64,000 bases of DNA. Source: Polytrichum commune (lineage: Eukaryota > Streptophyta > Polytrichopsida > Polytrichales > Polytrichaceae). The first letter of the stretch is position 1. Each line of letters opens with the position of its first letter. Under the pieces are notes generated by a model. That model was given only the letters and a program-made list of their open reading frames with translations, was not told the DNA's origin and did no database searches. Position numbers and translations under genes: made by a program. The stretch covers positions 24,368,001 through 24,432,000 of the forward strand of contig OX485806.1 of NCBI GenBank assembly GCA_950295325.1, read 5' to 3'. Below, in pieces: positions 39,222-54,955 of the stretch.

Positions 39222-39551
39222 CCAACTTCTAACTCAGGTGGAACTACTTCCTGTGGACAACTTGGCTGTCAGGACAACTGGGCCCGACACTATGAATGCG
39301 AATCTCCCATTAACATATGACCCTCCAGAAAGTGCACCAAGAAAGTCTCTTCAAAGTGGATTTGAGAGTCCCCCTGTAGTTTTGTGGATTGGCTTAACCC
39401 TAGCATTTATTCTTCTATTTATTTTTGCATTTTATCCTAACATATCCCTATTAGGTCCTTTTGAAGTTTTTTGCATAGGCCTTTATCTCATAGGACCTCC
39501 CAAAGTACTGCAAAATGTAGCATATGTTTCAGCATTGCTTCATGTTGTGGA

Positions 39552-39640
39552 CAGGGTTGTCTATTGTGTCGTGACGGAGGCTAATCTCAGCATAATGTCG
39601 TGTCGTCACGACACGTATCCGTCACGACATTATGCCGGAT
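39552..39640 (+). repeat. hAT left terminus: TIR and subterminal repeats
   Basis: The 13-bp TIR is followed by CTATTGTGTCGTGACGGAGG (39561-39580), which also occurs in direct orientation at 54726-54745. An imperfect hairpin comes next: CATAATGTCGTG (from 39591) and CACGACATTATG (to 39632) are inverse. Such repeated motifs often bind hAT transposase. Confidence 0.8.
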
Positions 39641-39780
39641 GCTGTCTTTATCCTGATGGACTTGAATTTTACCGAATTTTGTGTGTAATTACATTACCCC
39701 ATTTCAGACACGTAGGATGTAAGATGTCCACGTGTGATGACATGTCAGCAAAGTAGAGGTAAAGTGGGGAAAAAATTACT

Positions 39781-39917
39781 AGCCCCCGATCCAACCCCCG
39801 TCCGCCCCCGTTCCCCCCCTTCCGCCCCCCCTCCGCCCCCCCCCGTCCGCTCCCGCCCCCCCCCCCCCCAGTCCGCCCCCGTTAGATTCGTAGTCCTCCT
39901 TCATGAATACTATAAAT
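39781..39917 (+). promoter_or_regulatory. Transposase promoter: C-rich minisatellite plus TATA box
   Basis: 39783-39891 is a C-rich array with CCCCCGTCCGCCCCCGTTCC-like units and long C runs. A TATA box (ctataaatt) at 39910-39918 follows after about 20 bp. An acceptor-like TTTGTATTTGCAG ends at 40133, 15 bp before the transposase ATG, so a short 5'-UTR intron is likely. The same layout recurs before the two other main genes of the element. Confidence 0.6.
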
Positions 39918-40147
39918 TGAGGGTTCAAGGTGCCATTTTTGCCTCGACTGCCATAGTGTGTCTCAAGTCTTTTGATTCTCTTCTGAGGAGTGAGGATTGA
40001 ATGCGTGAGACCCGAATGCAGAGGATACTTTGTCCACTCTAGTGACTGTGAATTAGGGTTGCCCTTGTGGCACTACTCAACAGGACCTAGTATGCGATCA
40101 AAGTTACTTGCTCTACCTTGTTTGTATTTGCAGGTTTTGTTGAAGTC

Positions 40148-43100
40148 ATGCCACGCCGAAATGATGCATGGGATCATTGGTACGAGGATAAGGGGATGGT
40201 TCCTGGTAAATCACAAAGGCAGGTTAAATGTAGGTTTTGCCCGTTCGTCATATCTTACCGAGGAAATAGAATGTTGGCCTACCTTGGTTATAGACCTCCT
40301 GTAGGGGGTGCTTGTGATGTTTCCACATGTAGGATGGTACCCCCGCATATTAGGGTCTTGTTTGAAGATTGCGGAGGCATTGTGCCCTTACATCTAGGCA
40401 TTGAAAATGAGGACCCTCCGGTGCGTGATGATGTACCTCTGGAGCCTATTATAGCGGACTCCGTAGATAGTGAAACAGAGCCTTTGCTTATGTCCCAATC
40501 CACTCAGCATTCTGATGTTGTGGTATATGGCACACCTCCTCGTGAACTACGTCAACTCAACATAACGGAGGGGTTCAATGTGTCAACAAAACAACTCCTT
40601 GATAGAGCATGGGCAACGGCTTTTTATGAAGCTAACATTCCTTTCAACATTGTGAGACATCCTGCATTTGTTCATGCTGTGCGTGAAACTACTCGCCATC
40701 GAATGCCAGCCTACACACCACCATCGTACAATGCACTCCGTACGAAGTTGTTAACTGCAAAAAAAGTTGATCTAGATAGGCAAGTGAAGGAGAAGCTGGG
40801 GAATTCCGTTGACAAATACGGCGTTACAATATGTTGTGATGGATGGGACAATGTGCAAAAGCAACCTCTCCTAAACGTTCTTCAATGTGGCACAAAGGGA
40901 GACGTTTTCTTGGGTACCGTTGATACCACGGGAAATCACAAGGATCATGTCTACGTTGTTGCTCAAATTCAACCATTTGTGGAAAAGGTTGGTCGACATA
41001 ATGTGGTCCAAGTTTGCACCGACAATGCCCCAGTTATGGCCTCCGTTGCTCGCGACTTGATCCGAGCAAATCCCGATCTATATTTTCAAGGATGTGCTGC
41101 ACATTGCCTAGATCTCCTCTTAGAAGATTGGGGGAAGGAGGAATGGGTGAAAAAGTTGGTAAAAAAAGCGCGCCATATTTGTGTTTTTGTTAAAACCACC
41201 ATGTTTCTCAAGCTATATTCCGGAGGTTGTCACCAAATCTCTCACTCCGCCTACCTGTAGAGACCCGTTTTGCAACGAACTTCATCATGATAGAACGTCT
41301 TCTCCAAGTACGCAATGCTTTGGAAAGAATGGTGGTTGATGAGGATTGGCCTACTCTAATGCGTGATTTGAGGAGGAGATCTCGCACCTCTTACATGAAG
41401 GGCTTTGCAGTGCGAAGCTTTATACGTTCGGATGGATTTTGGAACACGTGCGAAAATTTCTTATATATGGTGATCCCGGTTGTTAAAGCTCTTCGTGTAT
41501 TTGATGGCAAGGCGCCTGCAATGGGATTGGCTTGGAGGGTCATGCATGATTTACAAACCCATATTCGTGGATTCAGTAAACCTTCATTTCGCTTAAGCCT
41601 TGAGCTTGCTGCAAATGCTATGCTAACATTTCAAAATAGATGGAGGTTGATGTTGAATGATCTTCATTGGGCTAGAGCGATGTTAAATCCGCTTCTATGT
41701 GGTTGGGCCCCACTCCATGAGGATGAGAATTCGAGGACAATCCTAAATCGAGTTCTTCGCAGGCTTGCTCAAGATGAGGACACTTATGTCCAAATCCTCC
41801 ACCAGTACCAAGATTTCCTTGAAAATCGAGGGCCTTTTGCTGATTCTACTGACCCAAACGTGCATGCCGCACCTCTCCATGAATGGTGGGATGCAATGGG
41901 AGGTGGAGCTAAAGCCCTCCAAACAATAACAAGACGTATCCTTACACAAGTATGTTCTGCATCCGCATGTGAACGCAATTGGAGCATGTACTCATATGTC
42001 CACAACAAGAGTCGCAATCGCTTGAAGCATAGTCGTGCTGAGGACCTCGTCTACATATATACCAATAGTAGGCTCATTCGACACCGGAGGGGTCCAAAAC
42101 CTGCGCAATGGTACGAATTGAATGAGGTCCATTTTGACGATGACCTTGACGAAGAAGATGACGTGGATCCAAATGATAGGGCCGGAAATGATGACGACAA
42201 CAATGTTGATGACATCGACTTTGATTTGGATGATCTCGATTCAGAGAATCATGATTCAGAAGATGAGGATGGCAATGGTAGTGATGGAAACCTTGGGGTG
42301 TTTAATTTTGATGAAGCGGATGTCCCCCAGCATAACGACGGAATGCATGACGATCATGAGGGGTCTATTGGAGGACCACCTTTTGAAACCCTCCATACTG
42401 GACAAGGTTTTCGCTCTGACCATAATGTTACTATGGGGGCAATTGAGAATGTAGGAATTGAAGTAGATTCCTTGCAACCTCGGAGCGATTCTCTTTCTTT
42501 TGGTGGAGGTGACAATGTACTACCCGCAAATGAGCCAACGCATGTTCAACATGATCCACTTCCAGCCACAGTACATTCTGAATCTATGGACACCTCCCTC
42601 ATATCCAATCATTGTATGGAAGATCAAAAGCCCAATGTTCTTGAAATGCCTACAACTCGATTTTGTGCTCTTCAAAGAATTACATCCACATCTACGGTGC
42701 AAGTGCATGCACAACGTCAACATCGTCCTCTCACTCGAAGTATTGCCAATACTTCTAGATTGGGTGTTTCACGTGCAACTACAGTGGGTGCTACTTTGGT
42801 TGCTATACACAATGTTTCAGGAAATGTTGCTATAGAGGCGTCACGCCGTCAATCTGTTCGTCGACATGTTGCTGAGAACATACCAATTGCAATTCCACCC
42901 GCATCAGTTTCGTTTCCACACAGTCAATCCAATGGAAGAGGTGGTCTTGGAGTTGGAGGTGGAAGTACAGTGGGGGATGTTTTTATAGATGGAAGTAGAG
43001 ATGAAGTACACTCAAGTCGTGGTACGGGTGGAGGGCGCCAGAGAACTACGAGAGATGTCAAACGTACTAGGAAGAGGTATAAGGGAAGATCGCTTCCATT

Positions 43101-43332
43101 TATTGCTGAAGACTACAATGAAGATGAGGGTAGACCACATCTAGATGAAAATGACATACATGATATTGAGGGCTCCCGGCCCACCAAGAAGATAATTATC
43201 TCACAACATGACCGAGAGTTGCACCTTTGGAGCGCGACTCCCCAAACAGATGATGATTTCAGCACAGACGAATTTGAAGAGGACCCAAGGTGTGTTGAAG
43301 CAAATGATCCCATAGTACGGATTCGAACGTAA
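40148..43332 (+). pseudogene. hAT transposase, one frameshift
   Basis: I start at the ATG at 40148 (MPRRNDAWDHWYED). Domains in order: a degenerate BED-type finger (KCRFCPFVIS; the His part is altered); a DUF659-type RNase H-like core with CCDGWDN and CTDNAPVM holding the two catalytic Asp; AAHCLDLLLEDW; RFATNFIM; and the C-terminal hAT dimerisation region SACERNWSMYSYVHNKSRNRL with the catalytic Glu. A long acidic tail (DDDLDEEDDVDPND onward) and a basic C-terminal part (RTTRDVKRTRKRYKGR) follow; these are longer than usual. At 41192-41195 an AAAA run needs one more A to keep the frame (FVKNHHVSQAIFRRLSP). As written, the first frame ends at 41260 and the second reads from about 41194 on to 43332. 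The full product would be about 1060 residues. The frameshift could be real or a base-call error. Confidence 0.9.
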
Positions 43333-44042
43333 AGGTTTTGCACAAATGTGGTTTTTGGTGCTCCCACTTACTTCCGTAATTTATTATTTACGTCAAAATT
43401 GATACAACCTTAGGGCCTTCAGTAAGACATTTAGACCATAAAGCGAACGTTACCTTCGCGGTTGTATCGTTTTATTATAGTAATAAAGTTATTTATTGCA
43501 TGTTTAAAAAAAATTAAATACCACATGGTTGTCAACTTGTCATTGCAATTAATATCCAACATCATGTTATGCCATTATTAGTTAATATTTTGTATTATTT
43601 TTACAGTGAATGGAGTTTTATGTTAATTTATTGAGTTTCTTAAAGAAAATATTTTTATAAATATTGCAATCTTATTTTGCTCGATTTTACATGCTTCGTT
43701 GGTGACTTCATCTTTTTTAGAACCTTTCTATGTGTTTTATATAATTATATCTTTATGTGGTATTTAATAATGACTATGTAGTTAATAGTTCTCTTTATTA
43801 TACTATCATATGAATTACTAATATTCAAGTAAGTTTTTAAAAGTTTCGAAAAACATTGAAACATGTGGCATCCATATGCTATCTTTTACACAATCTTAGA
43901 AATGATAACTTGCCGGTAAATCCTCTTCATATTACAACTTCTTTGAACATGAAATATGTTCATTGTGTCCAAAGTTTTCTATCTTCCTATACAACTTCCT
44001 AACCATCATACAAAAATTTCTAATCTGAATCTGAATCGAGGT
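43333..44042. other. Non-coding DNA within the hAT element
   Basis: A+T-rich 3' region between the convergent transposase and RING-like genes. No gene or clear repeat. Confidence 0.5.
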
Positions 44043-46322
44043 CTATTGCAACCCGATTAGCTGGATAAAGACCGCCGTGCCATTGAAGTCATCGTCGTGC
44101 TCATGGAAGTCACCTTCCATGCTTCGCGCTACTCCACGGGTGAGATATGGACGACTTCCAGGAGACAATGGAACGACATTACGTGGTCTAGGCCCACCAT
44201 TTAGCCATTTCAAAACCGCATCATCCGTAACTCTATAGAAGAGTGCATCAATTGCATTCAACTCCAGCTTTTGTGGTGGTACCCCTCCTCAAACTACAAT
44301 TCAATTCTCGGATCCCGTTCTATAGGCATGTCATCTGCATCTTGATCCAAATCATGCTCCGATACTGATTCGAGACTTGCTGCATTATACCAAGGAGAAT
44401 GAGCGCCTCTCTTTAATTGTACGTTTGTTGTATCCCAATACCAACCAAGACATTGGTAAAAAAATATTTTCAAGCCATGCTCGGGGGGCTTGTTGAGATA
44501 TATGGCATCTGCTGCATACGTAATTTGACGTGCACTCCGTGTCCATGCTCCATTTCTGTTCTCGTTTCATAGCTCAACCTTGGCAAAATTATATAACCAA
44601 CTTCACTCAACGTTAGGCATGTAATCCACACATTAGGCATGTAACCCACACGTTAGGCATGTAATCCCGAAGACCAAATTGGAGGTATAAACGAGGATGG
44701 AAGGGTGATCTACAATGAGGACACTGGCGTTTCTTGATCAGACTCCCCATTAGACATTGTGGATGAAATTGTGCCCCACATGATCCAACTTGAAAACATC
44801 CCTCTGGGCCAAATGGGCATTGACAAATCGCACATCCGGATCCGTCGAAAACCATTGCATGTGGATTTGGCCATAACTTCTCACCAGCCATACAGAATGG
44901 ATATTCATGCACTTCTTCCACATCCCAATGGTGATCCTCATCGGGCACTTGATGCCAATCAATGCTCCCACTTGGCAATGTCAAGTCCGCATTTTCATCC
45001 CACCTACTAGAGTACATATGCTCATCTTTTGGCCATGACGTGAGCATCATGTTCCGCATTCTTTGATTGCGGTTCCATTCTTTCTGGATGCTCTCAAACT
45101 CAGCTTCAAATTGACGGGCCTTGGCCATAGCAAACAATGTGCATGTCCTCATATTTTTGCGCTCCACAATCGCATTCAACAAGAATTTCTTCAGCCTTGC
45201 ATTTTGGTCCTCCAGTTGACCAATTTTGGCTTTGTGATCAACAACCACTTTATTGACCACTTGAAGTTGTTGTTGCATGTCCACCAACTCTTTTTGCAAA
45301 GCCTCCATCTTTCCTTGCATTATTTGATTCGTCGTACATACTTCCAAAGCTTATGACCTTGCAATCTTGGCTTCTTCTAAAGCTGTGTCCCTCTTTGCTT
45401 GCAAAGCCTGAAGGTTAATGCCTGTTGGTGCAATTGGTGTACTACTAGACCTGCTAGCCTCCTCCATCGTAAGTATTGCAACCTAATTTTCCAAGTTGAA
45501 AATCCTTGCTTGATACTCACGAATTTCCTCAGCATGTTGCTTACACAATACTTCTATTTTTCTCTCCATCATGTCCGCTCTAAATTCACCAAGGTTTACC
45601 TCGTTAACCACCTCGTTGATCAAGTTGTTGACCTCAATATTTGCCATGTTCTCTTGGAGTTCCATAGCCTCTATGACATCATCCATATTCACAAACGCCT
45701 CTTCGATTACCATCTCCACATCATTGGTTGCTCGACGATGAGGACGTGGCCTTTTTGGTTCCCGACCCTCATGAATTGGGGTCCCAGGCTCATCCACTAG
45801 TTTAGGATTCCTCCTGAACCACTCCGGAACGGGAGTGTATGGAATATCTGGAACTGTACACTTAGTGAATGCAATTCCAATACCTCCAAATTTCTTCTCA
45901 TTCAGAGCATCTAGACTTGCCCAATCCACTCTAACGCGCAACACGTGCTCCGCATACATCATACATGCCACAGACTTCGGAATTGCACTCTTGGGCCATC
46001 TTTCCAAACTGGAGATATTTCTAAGTATTGTTAGAAATCTCCATTTTGTTTCCACGCCTACAAGCTGGATATAACTTGCACTAATGGATTTACAATGTCG
46101 TTTGTAACAATATCTTGGCCACAACCGATCAAAGTGAGGGAAACCCACGTACTGCATTGCAGTCTTCGCAGACCACGGCTGTGGTACATTCTCCTAACCT
46201 GGCCTGGCTTTTTGGGTGTCGTCATCATAAACATCCCACTCCAACTCAGCGGCCTTGCGTCCATATTTCTTGTACTCCCCTGATCCTCCACTTGCCATGT
46301 CTCCAGATCTTCCACTTGTCAT
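44043..46322 (-). pseudogene. Cargo gene of hAT: coiled-coil and RING-like zinc-finger protein, decayed
   Basis: A single uninterrupted frame runs from the ATG at 46322 (MTSGRSGDMASGGSG) to 44613, except for three in-frame stops: TAG at 46196-46194, TAG at 45485-45483 and TAA at 45353-45351. All three are one C-to-T change from Gln codons. Recognisable parts are YVGFPHFDRLWPRY, a long coiled coil (about residues 250-400; EALQKELVDMQQQLQ and QLEDQNARLKKFL) and a RING-like finger near residues 494-540: CAIC, then CGAQFHPQC, then CPHC. RING fingers usually act in ubiquitin ligases; that role here is inference. A 20-bp unit repeated three times (about 44617-44676) shifts the frame after RDYMPN. 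Beyond it the former C-terminus continues in other frames, with more stops (WYWDTTNVQLKRG, then LKWLNGGPRPRNVVPLSPG), to 44043. Confidence 0.65.
44617..44676 (-). repeat. 20-bp tandem triplication inside the RING-like gene
   Basis: Three units of TTACATGCCTAACGTGTGGG type (minus strand). The two extra units add 40 bp, which shifts the frame and ends the protein early. Confidence 0.8.
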
Positions 46323-46743
46323 GTCTCTGGATCCTCCATTTGCCACGTATCCACCCAAATCGTAGTTTCTAAGTCTAATCTAGAACTCTAATTTTTAAAT
46401 TACTAATTGCATTTTATAATAGTGCTACAAAACATCCAAGCATACACTTCAAAATAGTGTAGCTGTGAAATGAGTTAAAAAATATTGTTAAAAAATAAAG
46501 TACAAAAATTTAGCACCCTTCGAGCACCCCGCTACCGGCGCTCACGCAGAGGCCAGTTGACTGGGCGCGTCAAAATGAATGTGCCAAAAAAACCGCCACC
46601 GTGATCACACCCACAAAACACGTGAGTATATAAAAATATGTGAAAAAGGATCCCCAAAAGGGACCCTACACTCCCCCGAGTGCCCCGCAACCCCGCACTC
46701 TTTGGTAGAGGAGGGTTGTCCGGGCGCCCACAAGGAGTGGAGT

Positions 46744-46779
46744 GGGGTATATAAGTGGTCCCCTCCACTTATATACCCC
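46744..46779. promoter_or_regulatory. Perfect inverted repeat with two opposed TATA boxes
   Basis: The arms GGGGTATATAAGTGG (46744-46758) and CCACTTATATACCCC (46765-46779) are exact inverses with a 6-bp spacer. Each arm carries TATATAAG, so core promoters could face both ways. The minus-facing one lies about 440 bp upstream of the RING-like ATG, directly downstream of a C/G-rich tract (46780-47060). Confidence 0.6.
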
Positions 46780-47060
46780 CGTCCACCCCTCCATCCGCTC
46801 TCCGTTCCCACCCGGTTCCCGATCCATTCCCCCCCGTCCGCCCCCGCTCCCCTCCGCGTTCCCCTCCCGTACCACCGTGCCCCCGTACCCGTTCCCCCCG
46901 TACCCCGTACCCGCGTTCCCCCCCCCCGTACGCCCTTCCCGTTCCCACCCGCCCTCGCGTTCCCCCCGTCCACCCACCCCGTTCCCACTTGCCCCCGCGT
47001 TTCCATCCGTCTGCCCCCGCGTTCCCCGCGTTCCCCGCGTTCCCGCCCCGTCCGCCTCTT
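46776..47060 (+). repeat. C-rich minisatellite tract in hAT element
   Basis: About 285 bp of degenerate CCCCCGTCCGCCC and CCCGTTCCC units. Long reading frames on both strands here are artefacts of the composition. It sits upstream of the minus-strand RING-like gene. Confidence 0.8.
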
Positions 47061-47808
47061 TTTCTCCCTAACTAACTAACGCCCTGCTTTCCGAATTCAT
47101 CCATCCACCAAAATACATCGTAATAGCCACCCATGTACTCAAATGAATTCAGAATATCTATCACTTGCACACTAAAATGGAAGCATATGACACTTTCATT
47201 AGTATGCTGAATAGTATCCTTGATACTAAAACGCAAGCTACCATCTGAAGTATTCCAATGTGCAATGCTAAATGTTATAATGTAAATATTTTTTCCATTT
47301 TATGAAGTTACTAATGTTCATAAATAATGTCATATTGGCACTTTAAATCCTCTAGGCATCTAACTTAGGCCCTTCGCAAATAATATATGTGACACTAAAT
47401 ACCATAACCGGTTTACTTATCCACACAAAACTAATTAGGAATCCCTCTAGCAACAAAGTAACCTATGTAGAATAATGACCAACAAATTATCACCGCTATG
47501 GAGATTTTTGATCTATACAACAATTTGTCATAAGGACAAATACACTATAATACACATATTTGCTACTCTAAATATAACATTAAAATTTCAAATTTTATAA
47601 GACAACGATGAACATGCATAGAAGTATGCAATAATAAACGGTTGGTTGAATTTTTAAATTTAAAAAAAATCCTAAAAGTCGTACAACATATTGCACAAGT
47701 AATAAATTTATTATTAGGACGACGGTACAAATGTCCTTTATAAATCACATACATGCGTAAACCATGCATAATCTAATATTCCACTTCATTCCGCCAACTT
47801 GACTTCCG
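47061..47808. other. Non-coding DNA within the hAT element
   Basis: A+T-rich; no gene or repeat recognised. Confidence 0.5.
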
Positions 47809-48378
47809 TCATGGCAACCTCGTAGATGCTTGTGGCTTCCGTCGAGGGTCAAATCTTGGCGGAAGAGGATCCGGCCTAAGTAAATCAACATAGCTAATCG
47901 TTCGGTCTTTCATTCATTCCTTCAACGGTAGCCGATGAGGCGATAATCCTCTCCTCTTCTTACGAAAAGGCAAAGTCTTTAAAGATTCACCCGCTGCCTT
48001 GACTTTTTTAATGTCGATTGAATTGTCATCCACATCCACATTCACATCCCCGGGCTTCCGTAAAATATCCGCGCTCAAATCAACTACATCATTTGGATCT
48101 CCACCCATGCTTTTTGTTAGGTCCTTCTCCACCGCATCGATCTCGAATTTGACCGCATATCGTCGTTGGTCCTCCTCCGCCCTTAACTTCCATGCTTGTG
48201 TAGATTGTGAGAAGGGGGTCATAACATAGTCATCACGAAATCGATATCTAGCGCTTCTCTCATCTCTCTCACGCTCGGGTGATGGATTGAATGGAATATG
48301 GGGTTCTCCTAAATTCTCTATCTACTCATCACATCCTAGACCCTCAAACATGTCTCTCTTCTCTCCCATCCTATCCAT
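47809..48378 (-). pseudogene. Small unknown cargo gene in hAT, with two in-frame stops
   Basis: From the ATG at 48378 (MDRMGEKRDMFEGLG) one frame runs 190 codons to the TGA at 47811-47809, broken by TAG at 48324-48322 and TGA at 47916-47914. The protein is charged (RERDERSARYRFRDDY, AWKLRAEEDQRRYAVKFEID) with a basic stretch FRKKRRGLSPHR. The end SYVDLLRPDPLPPRFDPRR is proline-rich. I recognise no family. The consistent frame over both stops argues that it was coding. Confidence 0.5.
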
Positions 48379-48648
48379 GATACTCTACCCTTGTTATATG
48401 TGTGAGTCTAAAGGCTCTACTTATATACTGAGCTCAAAGGACTTCATGAAATATTCAATAATTGATGTAATCCAAGATGTAGAGGATCCAATTCTCGTTG
48501 GTAAGATAAAGACAACACAATAGGAATAAAAAGAAAGTTGGTGAAGTCAAAAAATTAGTTGCACTTTTTGAAAAAGTCCCCCGACACCCGCATTGGAAAC
48601 CTCTTTGATACTTCTTTGAAGCTTCTATATTTGATTAGTTATCCATTC

Positions 48649-49065
48649 ATTCAACAAATCACAAATTTGTGCTTCAACCTTAGTGGTTCATATGGTTTTA
48701 CAACCCATGTCACGCATCCGAATGCCACTCTCATTCAACAAATCACAAATTTTTTCTTCAACCTTAGTGGTTCATATGGTTTCACAATCCATGTCACGCA
48801 TCTGAATGCCACTCTCATTCAACAAATCACAAATTTGTGCTTCAACCTTAGTAGTTCATATGGTTTCACAACCCACACTCATCCGAATGCCACTCTCATT
48901 CAACAAATCACGAATTTGTGCTTCAACCTAAGTGGTTTATATGGTTTCACAACCCATGTCACGCATCCGAATGCCACTCTCATTCAACAAATCACAAATT
49001 TTTTCTTCAACCTTAGTGGTTCATATGGTTTCACAACCCATGTCACGCATCCGAATGCCACTCTC
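48649..49065 (+). repeat. 84-bp tandem repeat, 5 units, in-frame
   Basis: Units at 48649, 48733, 48817 (81 bp), 48898 and 48982 begin ATTCAACAAATCAC and end AATGCCACTCTC. All lengths are multiples of 3, so a plus-strand frame (48559-49083) stays open through the array with a 28-residue repeat (CFNLSGSYGFTTHVTHPN). It directly abuts the piggyBac remnant. It may be expanded element DNA rather than a protein. Confidence 0.85.
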
Positions 49066-49070
49066 ATTAT

Positions 49071-49506
49071 CAAGCTTACATGAGAGGTGTGGATGTGGCG
49101 GATCAATTTCGTGGCTACCACACAGTTCAAAATAAAGACCACAAGTGGTGGCGTCGTCTATTTATGTACAATCTTGACACATCATTGGTAAGCTCATGGG
49201 TCATGTATAGAAGTAATATGCAAGAGGAGGTTGAAAAAAAAAATTTATCCCATATGGGAATTCAATTATGCAATAGCAAAGAAACTAACATTGTTTGCTA
49301 AACGGCTTGCAGCTACATGCACAACGGAGAGTGGAGTTGGAAATGCACACATGCTTCATTATAGCATGATGTGGAGCGGGCATAAAGGAGGGAAAAGAAG
49401 AAAATGTGGAACTTGCAGTAAAACAAAACAACAATATTATTGCCCTACATGTCACTACCAAGTACTTTGCCTATGTCAATGTTTTGTGACATGGCATGCA
49501 AAATAG
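49071..49506 (+). pseudogene. piggyBac-type transposase C-terminal remnant
   Basis: It reads QAYMRGVDVADQFRGYHTV then HKWWRRLFMYNLD, the conserved region around the last catalytic Asp of piggyBac-type DDE transposases (usually GGVDxxDQ ... KWWxRxF). A Cys-rich end follows: CGTCSKTKQQYYCPTCHY, then LCLCQCF, as in the family's C-terminal zinc domain. A run of ten A at 49234-49243 shifts the frame; nine A would give EKKIYPIWEFNYAIAKKL. The N-terminal two thirds are absent, so this is a fragment inside the hAT element. Confidence 0.7.
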
Positions 49507-50860
49507 TCACAAATTACATTTAAATGTTTACTACATAAGGGGGGGGGGGTTAGGGAAGAACTAGTGCTTGTAGGGGGGTTGAAGAGGGTCAATTCCTCTC
49601 ACTAGCAATTTTTTGATATATATTTATTTGTACATGAGATAAAAGAAATTATGCACAATATCATATATACGGGATGTAATATGCAAAGCAATTCGAAGAT
49701 AATTGCACATGAGATGTTATTTAATAGGTATTGTAGGTAGAAAGATGAATTATTTGCAAGAATTTATCCTTTTGTTAAAGATGTAATGTTGGGCAAAGTG
49801 GGCCCTGGTAAGATTTTTCTACAAAGAGGAAGTTCAAGTGATTCCTCTCAAAATGAAGAAGAGCAAGTTTATGGATTTCTAGACTCTAAGAAACTTGATA
49901 ACGTTCAAGTGGATGAAATATTGGTTGGGGGCATACCTAGTCCACAAAGAGATTATGTCTATCAATATATAAATATAAAGGGTGATAACCCTTCTCTTTC
50001 AAATGATTCCACATTGGCTAAATCTTCATCATCATAACCATTTAGTAACTTTCCTATGGTGTCATGAAAAAATAAAGTATCCCTACATTGATGTCTAGTA
50101 ACATATGATCAACATTAGGTGTTGGCCTTCAAAGATCATTCGAAGAAATCGCGACCGTATTCAATTTGGTTAGTAATTCCCCCTCGTTCCCCGTCCCCCG
50201 TCCTATGTTCGGGGAAAACCGACGGCTAGTTCATTATCAACCGATGGATTTCCCCTCATGGCCGGTCCAAATTTCCAATCATCGGATGGCAATCCAACTG
50301 TAATTTCAATCCTCCGGCAATTAGCCGATGGACTAGAAATTGTCCCGGAAATGTAGCCGATTCTTCTTGTGAGTTTCTGGATTTTAGCTGGAAGCATCCA
50401 TAGCGCTATTTGTATGGGGCATCTGATGATGCACTTGAGGAAGTACCCTAAACCTTAAACTTTTTGAATTATGCAACCTTTCCATGACCAAATCCAATTG
50501 CTTCTATGAAGAATTAGGGGACCCTTGGCCTTCAAGCGGTGAAGGCATTGCTAGGTTCAATTCCTGCCAAGGATATTAACTCTTCAAATTTAAAGTTTTG
50601 AACATGCCTTTTCTTTTCACTTATTCAAGATTTTATACTAAGAAATGATTTCTAATAAATTTTCATACATTTTTTAAACAATTAGTGCCGATATGAATTC
50701 CATTTAATCGGATATTGGCCAATGAAAATATGAAAATATAGGCAATTGGCCAATTGATTTTACAAAAGACCGGCTCTTCCCGATGTAAATTGGAAAAAAT
50801 CCGACCCTTCGTAGCAACTACCGGCAATTAGCCACTAAGGCTTCAAAAACTTCCCGAACT
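49507..50860. other. hAT interior; one short unknown ORF
   Basis: Mostly A+T-rich. A plus-strand frame at 49786-50037 (83 codons; GSSSDSSQNEEEQVYGFLD, ending Ser-rich) is acidic and of unknown origin. It might be a displaced part of the piggyBac element's coding DNA, but no family match is visible. Confidence 0.35.
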
Positions 50861-51137
50861 CTGCCCCCGTCCCGGTCGCCCCCCCGTTCCCCCCGTCCGC
50901 CTCCGTTCCCCCCCCCCCCCCCGTCCGCCTCCGTTCCCCCCCCCCCCCCCGTCCGCGCCCCCGTCCGCCCCCCCGTCCGCCCCCTCGTTCCCACCATCCG
51001 CCCCCGCGTTCCCACCGTCCCCGCGTTCCCCCCGTCCGCCCCGCTCCCACGTCCTTTCGTCCTACGTCCTTTCGGTTCCCCATGTCTAATCCGACCGGGA
51101 TCCCATAATCATTGTGCTCCCCTTTACCTATATAAAG
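50861..51137 (+). promoter_or_regulatory. Kinase-like gene promoter: C-rich minisatellite plus TATA box
   Basis: 50861-51055 is a C-rich array of CCCCCGTCCGCC units, with runs of up to about 14 C. TATATAAAG follows at 51129-51137, about 205 bp before the ATG. It has the same layout as the transposase promoter. Confidence 0.6.
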
Positions 51138-51342
51138 CCCCCGGCTTTAGTTCCAATCACTTTCCTCTCCTCCCACCACATCGGGACCCGAGACCTTGTT
51201 GCCGTCCTAAGGGACAGCGGCACCGCGCGGGTCTCAGGGGTTTTGGGAGGGCAGGGCAAATTGTGGGGGAACCCTCGCAATTTTTTTCTTCAGATTCATG
51301 CACTCATTTCTACACTCACTCACTCACACGGTTTTTTTCACG

Positions 51343-53227
51343 ATGGAGGGGAAGGACATTGCTCCTTACCAAGACGAGGATATAAGGCTGCACCGTGCTT
51401 GGCTCCGAAGCAATGCATCAGCGAATACTGGCGAGGGTATGGGAAGCGAGCCCGGAAGTGGAAGTCCTGCACCACGTAGAGAACGTCCAGATCCTTTTGA
51501 ATTTGATCAAGAGTTCTTTGTTGTTGGTCATTCTGGAGGCAGCCAAACACGGGGAAGCCGTGGAACACGTGGGAGTCGGGGAAACAGTGGACATAGAGGG
51601 AGAACAGGAAGGGGACCAAGCTCAGGCAGTTCCACAGGTATAAATGCACCCATTCGTGGGGAGAACGTGCCACCACGATCTCCGACACAGCGGACATCAG
51701 GTTCGGAGCATGATGAAAGACGGGGATTGAAACGCGCAGCAGATTCGGAAGGGATGGAGGATGGGTCCACGGCAACAGGTTCGCAATCAAAGAAAAGGAA
51801 AAATAGAGGCAAACGCGATAAACGGATCGATGAGGCTCGTAACCATTGTAGGACATTGCTGTTGGAATGGTTTAGAAATCACAGCATGGTTTTTTTGGAA
51901 AAAAAAATACCTCAATGATGGTACAAAGGGTTTAGAGTTGGTGAGGAACGATTTGATGGTTCCTCTCACGGAAGCCACGGCTGGAGCGGATTTTGAAGAA
52001 GCTAGGGGCATGAGCGATTGGGACACCGGGATTGAACAACAAGCCAGGGAAGCAATCTACAATCCAACAATGACATATGATGCTATGCATCCTGGAAAGG
52101 GAAGTAGTGGTGGCATGAAGTCTGAGCTGTACGAGAAGCTAGAGAATTGGAAAAGAAGCGTAATAGCAGCAAAAGGAACATCCGCCCGCAACCTTTCCGT
52201 TTTTATTAACAGACAACTGGCAGACAACATTGCCACTCAGGTCCGGCAGGGTGTCATATGGCTGCCTAGAAATGCGGAGATGAAAGCCTTGGATAAGGAA
52301 ATCTTCCAAGGGACCTACGGAGTGATGCAGAGGGTCACAATTCATGGAGCATCATTCATCCCTAGCTGGATAGAGTGGGCAGGGAAGATGATGAAGGCCA
52401 CGAATAGTTTGGAGAACCGAAAGGAGCGTTCAGTTGAAGCATTGGCGTGTCCAGTAGATCATCCTGGGGTAATCAAGCTACAGTACCTCAATATGAAAAC
52501 ATACGAATTCTATTCGATGTGGTGGAATGGAGGCTCTTTGAAGAGCATGAGAGTCTATGACTACCAAGTTCCGGATGTCCACGAGAGAACATTCCTTCAA
52601 ATGCATGGGCCAGACTTTGAATCATGGAAACGCTTGGTTGTATATCGAAGGCATCGAGCTTATTTGGCATGGGCTCTAATGTACATTGTGAATGTAGTGC
52701 ACAAGAATGACGTGTTGCACAATGACCTTAATCCCAACAATGTCATGCTACATTTCCCACAAGACCGTGAGAACACGGTTTTTATTGGTGTGTGTGATTG
52801 GGGCATGGCATCATGGGGAGATGAGGACGCCCCCTCTAACTATGGAAAAGATTCAGTGGATGAAATGAACAAGCACAAAGAAAAATACAACTGTGCTGGT
52901 CCTGAATTATTCCATGTACGAGGGCAGCATGGAACATCCACCTCTCCAATGAGGATGGCTCGGAAACATAGGCACACATTTCTCTCGGAGTCCTTCTCAG
53001 TGGGTACTTTGTCAAAGAAGATTTATCACAGGGATGCGGCTTCCCCCTTGTTTCAGCTAAACGGTGATCCAAATAGCTTGAGGATGCGATTTGAGATAGC
53101 ATTGGATGCATTGACGAAGACCAATCCAGCGGAAAGGTCAACCATCACACACGTAGTGAACATGTTGAAGTCGCCTCCATTCAACATGGTTAACCCGACA
53201 ATGTGCTTCCGTGACACTGTAAAATAG
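51343..53227 (+). pseudogene. Cargo gene of hAT: protein-kinase-like protein, one frameshift
   Basis: I start at the ATG at 51343 (MEGKDIAPYQDEDIRLH). The N-terminal 170 residues are Gly/Arg/Ser-rich (RGSRGTRGSRGNSGHRGR) and end in a basic stretch fit for nuclear import (SKKRKNRGKRDKRID). A kinase-like domain follows: a glycine-loop-like GTYGVMQRV near residue 323, the catalytic-loop equivalent VLHNDLNPNNVML near 458, a DFG equivalent CDWG near 484 and an APE-like GPEL near 518. The Asp and Asn of the catalytic loop are kept, but the usual RD and the following Lys are changed, so activity is uncertain. A run of nine A at 51899-51907 has one base too many; eight A joins FLEKK to YLNDGTKGLEL. 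The whole would be about 626 residues. A kinase is not part of any hAT transposition mechanism I know. Confidence 0.75.
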
Positions 53228-54414
53228 AAATTTTTAGTTTCTATTGCATCAATTTTGAATCATACCAATTTTGTAACCGCTGGATATGTAAATAAAGCCA
53301 TCAATTTTTCATACAAAACTTGTATATTGTATGAGGTTTATATGATTTTTTGAGAGCCAAAAAAAAGACTATGTCTTAAAATTTCAAAAAAAAATGAAAA
53401 AGTGTTGATTCCAGCGAAGAGCGTAGAATTGCGGTCGCACATTCTCTTGCAGTACAAATGTTATTTCATATTTGTATAGAGGACTTCATTCCCTATCCGT
53501 GGACACCAAGAACTCATTTTTTGTATATTGTATATTGTATATTGTATGAGGTTTATGGATCTTAGTGCAATGTTCCTACTCCATGAGGCTTTTGCTCCAT
53601 AATTGTAGGTGAACTTGAATTTCAGCACACCTACACATATTTCTACATGAAGTGAAAAAAAAAATCCAAAACAAAACATTTAGATTAATATGTAATGCTA
53701 TGCAAGAAAAAATATAGAGAGTAACATGCGACACATCAAAATGAAGAAGTCAAGCTTCTTCTTATGTTAGAGAATGGCTACATTCCAGACCTTGGACAAC
53801 TAACCAGCTAATTCAACTATTAGTTAACTCATTGTCTTTAATAACTAGAATTGTTTGTGATTTGACCTTCCCAAAAAAGTAGTTAACTACAGTTGTTTTG
53901 ATTTCGGTTTGCCAAAAATCTAGTTAACTATAGTTATATCTAGTTAACTAAATTTGGGCACAACCTGCAATGTAGTATCATGACATATCATAGCATCTAT
54001 ATCTTTTCCTTTCTCTTTTATTCAAAATTTTAAATTTGGGACTTGATTCCAATTGTAATTTGCACTCAATCAATACCCAATGAGCATGACTTCATTATCT
54101 TTCAATAACTTAGAGTATAATGGGTTCGATTGCTGTAATGGGCAATGGGTTCTATTCCTTCTTGGGATGGGCCGGCATGGGTGACAAGCATTGATTCTAA
54201 CATAAGATCTCTTATAGAAATTATGTAATATACTTTGATTCAAAAATGAAAATCAAATAACTTGTTGGTTGACTCCTTACATATTTTAGAACTCTCAAAA
54301 TGTAGTTGGTTGAATTTTCTAGTTAACTATAGTTGTTCTTCAAATTGGTTTGAAAATTTCCTAGTTAACTATAGTTGTTCTCTAAAATCTCTTGAAAAAA
54401 ATCTAGTTAACTAT
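53228..54414. other. hAT right interior with AGTTAACTATAGTT repeats
   Basis: No gene. CTAGTTAACTATAGTTGTT-type motifs recur at about 53880, 53930, 53950, 54320, 54362 and 54400. A 'gtatattgtatgaggttta' segment near 53320 is repeated near 53538. Confidence 0.55.
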
Positions 54415-54540
54415 AGTCCTTTCCCCGTTCCCTTCCCGTTCCCTTCCCGTTCCCCCCCCATCCGCCTCGCCCCGCCCCCCACCCCCCCCACCCCCGTCCG
54501 CCCCACCCTCGTTCCCCGTCCGCCCCACACCCTCCTTAGT
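54415..54540 (+). repeat. C-rich minisatellite tract near the right hAT end
   Basis: CCCTTCCCGTT and CCCCCGTCCGCCCC units, the fourth such tract in the element and the only one with no gene next to it. All four have the C-rich strand on top. Confidence 0.75.
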
Positions 54541-54719
54541 CGTTTTTTACTACTTTGATTTTAACAAAATGGTAAACAGAATGGCAAAATGGTTTACCGG
54601 GCGCTAGCCATATCCACGTCCACGTCCACGTCGGCGTTTTCTGCCACATAGGACGCCACCTTGGCAAGAAGGTAAGTATTTTACCCACCCTACTCCGTTC
54701 CCCCTATGTTGACCCTACA

Positions 54720-54811
54720 TGGACCCTATTGTGTCGTGACGGAGGGGTCCGTCACAACACGACACGTCATGACGGCACGACACCGTCATAACGGCGGGAT
54801 AGACAACCCTG
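54720..54811 (-). repeat. hAT right terminus: TIR and subterminal repeats
   Basis: It contains the direct copy of the 20-bp left motif (54726-54745), four further GTCGTG/CACGAC/GTCATGACG variants, and the terminal ATAGACAACCCTG. Confidence 0.8.
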
Positions 54812-54955
54812 GTTGTGGAGGCTTCCTACGCTCTTTTTCTAGCTCGGAAATTTGACCCCTCAAATGCATCTTTGTGGTTCTGGCAAACATTCTACATGGG
54901 CTTCTTCTCTTTGTATCTTTTGATGCAAAAGGAAAAATCCAAGGTGGAGCAGTGA

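Follow-up and report, generated by a model that had tools for sequence, protein, structure and literature searches.

A probable giant hAT transposon family carrying accessory genes in Polytrichum commune

In the Polytrichum commune genome, a TMEM254-like gene is interrupted by a 15,260-bp element that carries four genes, here termed H, R, S and K, between the ends of a hAT transposon. The window in which it lies is a stretch of 64,000 bp (GenBank assembly GCA_950295325.1, contig OX485806.1, positions 24,368,001 to 24,432,000; C4:24368001-24432000 in the contig labels used below), from an assembly of 408 Mb in 64 contigs, seven of which are large (42-78 Mb). An initial annotation of the window had described exact 13-bp terminal inverted repeats (TIRs), an exact 8-bp target site duplication (TSD) and a host reading frame that closes when the element is removed, and all three observations hold. 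A 13-mer with up to two mismatches is expected by chance about 1.7 times within the window. Genome-wide, the exact 13-bp TIR occurs 1009 times (494 + 515), compared with 0 + 1 occurrences of a reversed control. Further, when the flanks are rejoined around one TSD, the reading frame is open and its Pfam match to TMEM254 spans the junction (E 2.1e-19). The features of the element are listed in Table 1.

Table 1. Features of the element in the window (position 1 is the first base of the window)
Feature	Position	Strand	Remarks
Left 8-bp TSD, GTTGTGGA	39544..39551	none	read directly
Left 13-bp TIR, CAGGGTTGTCTAT	39552..39564	+	exact
Left subterminal GTCGTGACGG motifs	39568..39628	none	element offsets 17, 52 and 68; same offsets in 6/6 elements scanned
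C-rich tract upstream of H	39772..39906
H, hAT transposase gene (DUF659 + Dimer_Tnp_hAT)	40148..43332	+	frameshift near 41200 in window copy
R, coiled-coil/RING gene	44060..46360	-	broken in window copy; limits approximate; 777 amino acids when intact
C-rich tract between R and S	46762..47066
S, small gene	47815..48382	-	two stops in window copy; limits approximate; 186 amino acids when intact
84-bp tandem repeat adjoining S	48563..49152	none	found too in full copies A2a, A1a and Ba
Stretch private to window copy, with piggyBac-like scrap	49069..50878	none	no blastn match in A2a, A1a or Ba
C-rich tract upstream of K	50842..51071
K, protein-kinase-like gene	51343..53227	+	two overlapping frames in window copy (frameshift)
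C-rich tract inside right end	54412..54546
Right subterminal GTCGTGACGG motifs	54733..54775	none	motif scan
Right 13-bp TIR	54799..54811	-	exact partner of CAGGGTTGTCTAT
Right 8-bp TSD, GTTGTGGA	54812..54819	none	exact copy of left one

The H gene has a frame of about 1084 codons in intact copies, and an intact copy matches the Pfam families Dimer_Tnp_hAT (E 3.8e-10) and DUF659 (E 6.5e-35). The hAT D, D, E and C..H residues, at positions that we take to be the catalytic ones, are invariant in all 17 copies of H that were read. A comparison of H with solved structures gave no match at E 1. Together, the 8-bp TSD, the short TIRs, the dimerisation domain and these residues place the element in the hAT superfamily. 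Both ends also carry clusters of the motif GTCGTGACGG. Allowing up to one mismatch, all six elements scanned have it at fixed offsets at the left end and in the last 80 bp or so at the right end; two of the six also contain a single internal stray match each. These clusters are probable transposase-binding sites.

The product of R was recognised by eye as containing a coiled coil, and its RING-like domain by Pfam; the zf-RING_2 score is 28.2 in the window copy, above the gathering score of 27.3, and 24.7 in an intact copy, below it. Three of the seven RING ligand positions are invariant and four differ in one of 20 copies. S encodes a small charged protein with no match in Pfam. K has an open frame of about 708 codons in many other copies and matches Pfam Pkinase in an intact copy (E 2.3e-6, below the gathering score), while its matches in NCBIfam are weak, partial and limited to the kinase region. 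The motifs present include a G-loop, the Lys and Glu, H-N-D, an Asn, D-W-G and a P-E motif. All 25 copies read share seven of these residues (Gly, Gly, Lys, Glu, Asp, Asn and Pro), and 24 of them keep the Asp of the DWG (DFG-type) motif. Against solved structures, the best match of the window K was weak (E 0.0051) and the intact K gave no phmmer match at 0.001.

The family is large, and the window copy is one of its degenerate members. Its H and K are each split over two overlapping frames and its R lies in several pieces; relative to an intact copy, R has five in-frame stops and S two. Between S and K it also holds DNA of its own, since the stretch from 49069 to about 50878 has no blastn counterpart among the three other full copies compared. 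A weak Pfam match to DDE_Tnp_1_7 (E 4e-4, below the gathering score) marks a piggyBac scrap at about 49069-49506. Because the containing stretch has no match in those copies, the scrap was rejected as a component of the module. The gene list of the initial annotation is therefore retained for the transposase, the RING-like gene, the small gene and the kinase-like gene, which recur together, and not for its piggyBac remnant, which is private to this copy. The 84-bp repeat adjoining S varies between elements and is also seen beside S at L116:1903-2721.

The initial annotation had considered that the same ends might elsewhere flank the transposase alone, with the other genes never recurring together, and had proposed a genome-wide search for the gene set. 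The genome was searched with parts of the four genes, so that all counts are lower bounds. Matches were found for K (86; 86 of 315 candidates scored), H (126), R (148 pieces) and S (153; 150 of 460 candidates scored). Clustering by single linkage, with a distance of 9 kb, was applied to 86 of the 86 K matches, 105 of the 126 for H, 108 of the 148 for R and 118 of the 153 for S, leaving out further fragments, distant hAT hits and S relatives at about 50% identity. Of the resulting 151 clusters, 57 hold all four genes, 20 hold H, R and S, seven hold K, R and S, and 67 have other contents. None of 300 random placements of K, R and S produced a four-gene cluster. The four-gene clusters lie on all seven large contigs, and of the 85 clusters with K, 78 contain at least one further gene of the module. 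Among the 104 clusters with H, nine have H alone and 11 have H with R, as counted from gene matches and not from element ends.

The four genes occur in three arrangements. A1 (H+R-S-K-) accounts for 29 clusters, A2 (H+R-S-K+, the type of the window copy) for 20 and B (K+S-H+R-) for seven; the last of the 57 consists of two copies, one nested in the other. At C1:32569099-32587502 lies an 18.4-kb copy with an exact TSD and open, stop-free frames for H, R, S and K. Similarly, a copy near C7:27.94M, of which one end was found, has no stops in the four genes as aligned, with one H codon and one S codon unaligned.

The size of the mobile unit was taken from the pairing of 100 listed TIR places in the first 34.6 Mb of C1. 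The 37 adjacent, facing pairs of exact TIRs fall into 24 of 0.53-1.85 kb, 11 of 10.8-18.4 kb and two of 30-36 kb. In this region, none of the 37 falls within the 1.85-10.8 kb range of a transposase-only hAT. Three of the 11 large pairs look like segmental copies of each other, having repeated spacing, and an apparent segmental triplication at C1:21.84-21.97M bears three giant copies. The five full copies that were read (13.8-18.4 kb) all have an exact 8-bp TSD. A further 18 end pairs were fetched, of which three lacked one end in the stretch fetched; the other 15 comprised 11 with an exact TSD and four with mismatches. Exact 8-bp TSDs are thus present at 16 of 20 two-ended loci of coding size, as well as in four of four short elements read. 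The 13-bp TIRs were exact in the ends read, save for one end with one mismatch.

Empty sites provide evidence of insertion itself. For the copy at C2:35.93M, the joined flanks align to C2:35977109-35977387, where one TSD is present (99% identity, 279 of 280 nt), and to C4:57826583 at 89%. The joined flanks of copy A1b (C1:14.04M) match all 40 places scored, out of 364 candidates, at 97-100%. Of these places, 29 lie between a listed S and K, nine beside a listed S, and two near R or between R and S. Since these 40 sites are inside sister elements, one giant copy jumped into another. On the evidence of the ends and duplications, the whole four-gene unit is shown to insert as one piece between 13-bp TIRs with an 8-bp TSD, and comparison with the empty sites shows the insertion half of hAT mobility.

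Two of the four mismatched loci, giant copies in opposite orientation at C1:2330601-2366356 and C1:2520064-2532921, have their TSDs swapped crosswise (8/8 and 8/8 bases). Beyond these TSDs the DNA is unrelated, with 8 and 18 of 50 bases matching. A swap of this kind is as expected from inversion of roughly 150 kb between the two copies, which seems to have happened here; the swapped TSDs and the unrelated 50-bp flanks reject the two as inverted duplicates.

Selection on the genes was estimated as the ratio of nonsynonymous to synonymous substitution (dN/dS) by the Nei-Gojobori method with bootstrap, in 16 between-lineage pairs hand-chosen among the copies read and in a second set of all pairs by group. 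In the chosen pairs, dN/dS was 0.40-0.60 for H, 0.46-0.60 for K and 0.49-0.58 for R, and in none of the 16 did the upper 95% bootstrap limit reach 1. Shifted reading frames of the same DNA gave 0.68-1.15. By region, each in a single pair, the kinase part of K gave 0.37 and its N-part 0.60, and R gave 0.43-0.64. For S, two comparisons of the hAT version with that of a second family, described below, gave 0.52-0.53. Judged by these ratios, H, R and K are shown to be under similar purifying selection between lineages, with catalytic or metal-binding residues kept. Median synonymous divergence (dS) is unequal between the genes, being 0.11 for H, 0.20 for K, 0.28 for R and 0.11 for S between A1 and B, and 0.10, 0.14, 0.28 and 0.16, respectively, between A1 and the window copy. 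These differences, taken from dS values without trees, suggest that cassettes have been exchanged between lineages. Within A1, whose copies are young, the median dS of H and K is about 0.01.

C-rich tracts adjoin H, R, K and the right end of the element. They are 135-305 bp long in the window copy, where they make up about 5% of the element, and are as long as 670 bp in other copies. Junctions of rearrangements and deletions lie in these tracts in many cases, though not in all, with the limit that blastn with low-complexity masking locates a junction only to within a tract. In window coordinates, type B elements have 39815 joined to 50900, H restarting at 39807, and 46956 joined to 54422. One boundary of the inverted K of type A1 is at 50920, and a 526-bp element joins about 39834 to 54491. 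In an S-only element, 39868 is joined to 46994, and the sequence resumes at 54514. Outside the tracts lie the two limits of the S segment, at about 47617 and 49068, and the junctions past the far end of K, at about 53341-53603. The tracts were not called promoters because gene strand is inconsistent relative to them.

The S-only element just mentioned (L116:150-4611; C3:42147549-42152011, 4.46 kb) has both hAT ends, an exact TSD and an open S frame of 189 codons. With eight other loci it forms a set in which a lone S lies beside a right end, with no matches to H, R or K within 9 kb; three of the nine are stop-free in the S match.

A second, unrelated high-copy family of transposon-like elements, seen at L118:1574-5561, L117 and L119-L126, also has S among its regular genes, as an antisense homologue. 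The genome search with S brought up relatives at about 50% identity, of which the two read at 10 kb (L117 and L118) have no hAT TIR. In all seven such loci read, including L118, the source of the query, S lies opposite pieces of a second gene, whose 3' part is 0.55-0.66 kb from S in five of the seven. This second gene, which gave 2206 first-look candidates, has a SWIM-like CxC...CxH motif and no match in Pfam. Three loci picked through the second gene, blind to S, all contained S. Among the 81 best copies of the second gene listed, 56 have a listed S within 6 kb, on the opposite strand in 56 of 56 and at a near-constant offset in 55; random placement gave an expectation of 0.43 and a maximum of 4 in 1000 placements. 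An assignment to the Mutator-like elements (MULEs) was not adopted, as the SWIM-like motif was seen by eye and Pfam gave no match; in addition, no convincing long inverted ends were found in L117 or L118. One of the seven loci contains, beside S, a decayed kinase-like fragment (L117:4287-4511, minus strand) with H-N-D and C-D-W-G motifs and 31% identity to K (E 2e-5 and 4e-6). The greater diversity of S in the second family suggests a transfer from that family into hAT.

hAT elements are the textbook one-gene, cut-and-paste transposons. In the openly licensed literature that was searched, no report of a multi-gene plant hAT was found. TIRs of 5-27 bp are given for hAT elements (PMC12506042). 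The family shares with Ac/Ds of maize and ordinary plant hATs its short TIRs, subterminal repeats, 8-bp TSD and swarm of short derivatives; however, Ac measures 4.6 kb (PMC3260210), whereas four genes in about 14-18 kb are kept across many copies here. MuDR and VANDAL elements, which are MULEs, are likewise plant DNA transposons bearing accessory genes beside the transposase (mudrB; vanB and vanC), VANC being an anti-silencing protein whose targets often form tandem repeats (PMC6446971, PMC5735166). They differ in transposase superfamily and ends, and in having one or two accessory genes rather than three. The transposase here is a hAT enzyme by Pfam, which sets the family outside the MULEs and VANDALs, and R, S and K matched neither a plant-mobile nor a VANC-type domain of Pfam. 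The intact copy, with its full transposase and full-length accessory frames, is also distinct from Pack-type non-autonomous elements, which have no transposase of their own and carry pieces of host genes.

Among elements outside plants, ToxhAT/ToxTA of fungi is a class II element of about 14 kb, once called hAT, with non-transposase genes. It is single-copy, and its TA TSD and 74-bp TIRs led its authors to regard it as a likely non-autonomous Tc1/mariner element, whereas the present family is multi-copy with a hAT TSD and transposase (PMC12506042). Starships and Teratorn are giant eukaryotic elements with many genes (PMC11623301, PMC10175614). Starships use a tyrosine recombinase (PMC12506042) and Teratorn is a piggyBac-virus fusion; the present element has a hAT transposase, four genes and, in the genes scanned, no viral gene. 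The same genes gave no Pfam match to the tyrosine recombinase captain (DUF3435), and the element was not assigned to the Starships.

The window insert is probably one dead copy of a giant, originally autonomous hAT family, with a unit of about 13.8-18.4 kb that holds H, R, S and K, in which R, S and K are accessory genes and the C-rich tracts take part in shuffling the cassettes. The description of a multi-gene hAT in the initial annotation stands, but the extra genes have the look of a core accessory set, not of cargo picked up at random. A single accident, in which unrelated genes and transposons inserted into a normal hAT, would fit the private stretch with its piggyBac scrap and the nesting of one giant copy in another at C1:14.04M. 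It is refuted by the recurrence of the gene set with independent TSDs: four-gene clusters abound on the seven large contigs against none in the control, and TSDs surround the whole unit at most two-ended loci and are joined by the empty sites, so that hardly any credence is left to it. Almost as improbable is an endogenous virus or virophage-like element of several genes with a hAT enzyme as its integrase, in the manner of Teratorn. The size of the unit and the pairing of a kinase with a RING gene bring large viruses to mind, but among the genes scanned Pfam matched no domain of a capsid, a polymerase or packaging (other reading frames of full copies lay outside that scan), and viral contigs of IMG/VR scanned with K and S held no relative, which led a viral origin of either gene to be rejected. 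The extra genes could instead serve the host, with the hAT ends merely spreading a host gene cluster, and purifying selection alone cannot separate selection at the level of the element from that at the level of the host. The near-constant company of K with other module genes and the decay of copies after insertion argue against such a role, as do the R matches listed (149 of 149 candidates scored), all of which are at least 53% identical to the query with no remoter host relative among them; this reading is improbable.

Passive hitch-hiking, in which an ancestral hAT captured three host genes once and has since amplified them to no benefit, as a multi-gene Pack-type element might, is unlikely but retains some weight. 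The weak constraint on S, the stops in R and the higher group medians of dN/dS favour it, and they stand among the results, given next, that count against the main reading. Within the hAT family, S has a dN/dS of 0.57-0.88, with three of four intervals including 1, which is weak constraint. Stops were present in 15 of 20 copies of R read, seven of 17 of H, nine of 25 of K and five of 25 of S, though many of these copies had been chosen for long frames. Group medians that include broken copies are weaker (K 0.80 between B and the window copy and 0.85 in the window-x group; R 0.77 and S 1.21 within B), and the median for H within A1 is 1.01; these weaker medians, H within A1 included, are what decay after insertion usually produces. 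Some true-frame intervals take in the lowest values from shifted frames (0.68-0.74), and in a single pair the first 660 codons of H gave 0.84 and its tail 0.49, the reverse of what is expected for a catalytic core. The single-sequence fold prediction for K was an unusable model, with a predicted local distance difference test score (pLDDT) of 31.5, and the accessory roles of R, S and K are deduced from domains alone. At the level of the loci, the three end pairs with a missing end weigh against the main reading, as do the other two of the four mismatched loci: the 10.8-kb pair at C1:24.63M, an inverted duplication with TIR-bearing ends rather than an element (50 of 50 flanking bases agree in the outward direction), and the two-ended locus at C6:36.70M, whose flanks are unmatched without explanation. 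Against hitch-hiking, R and K are constrained about as much as H in the chosen pairs, the four genes persist through changes of gene order with the kinase residues kept, and the second family keeps S too.

If the family is a giant autonomous hAT, H would bind the GTCGTGACGG motifs at both ends, cut and paste the unit and mobilise the short derivatives in trans. R, S and K would be accessory proteins that aid propagation, probably by helping transposition or evading host control. As a best guess from their predicted activities, R as a ubiquitin ligase-like protein and K as a kinase may target either the transposase or proteins that the host uses in silencing or repair. S may be a general transposon helper, because an unrelated transposon-like family carries it too. 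By analogy with VANC of VANDAL elements (PMC5735166), their role may be one of counter-silencing. Recombination at the C-rich tracts next to H, R, K and the right end may shuffle cassettes and reduce full elements to short, non-autonomous derivatives. More tentatively, unrelated transposon superfamilies might share an accessory kit, the hAT having taken S from the SWIM-motif family or shared it with that family and added a kinase and a RING protein; such a kit, which is possible but doubtful at present, could act as a mobile counter-defence or in licensing transposition.

An amplified hAT family with a conserved four-gene unit of up to 18 kb implies that the hAT superfamily can evolve accessory kits comparable to those of VANDAL elements. 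An accessory gene common to two unrelated transposon families makes the trade of helper or anti-silencing genes directly testable. Further, the C-rich tracts offer a concrete model for the shuffling of cassettes and the birth of short derivatives.

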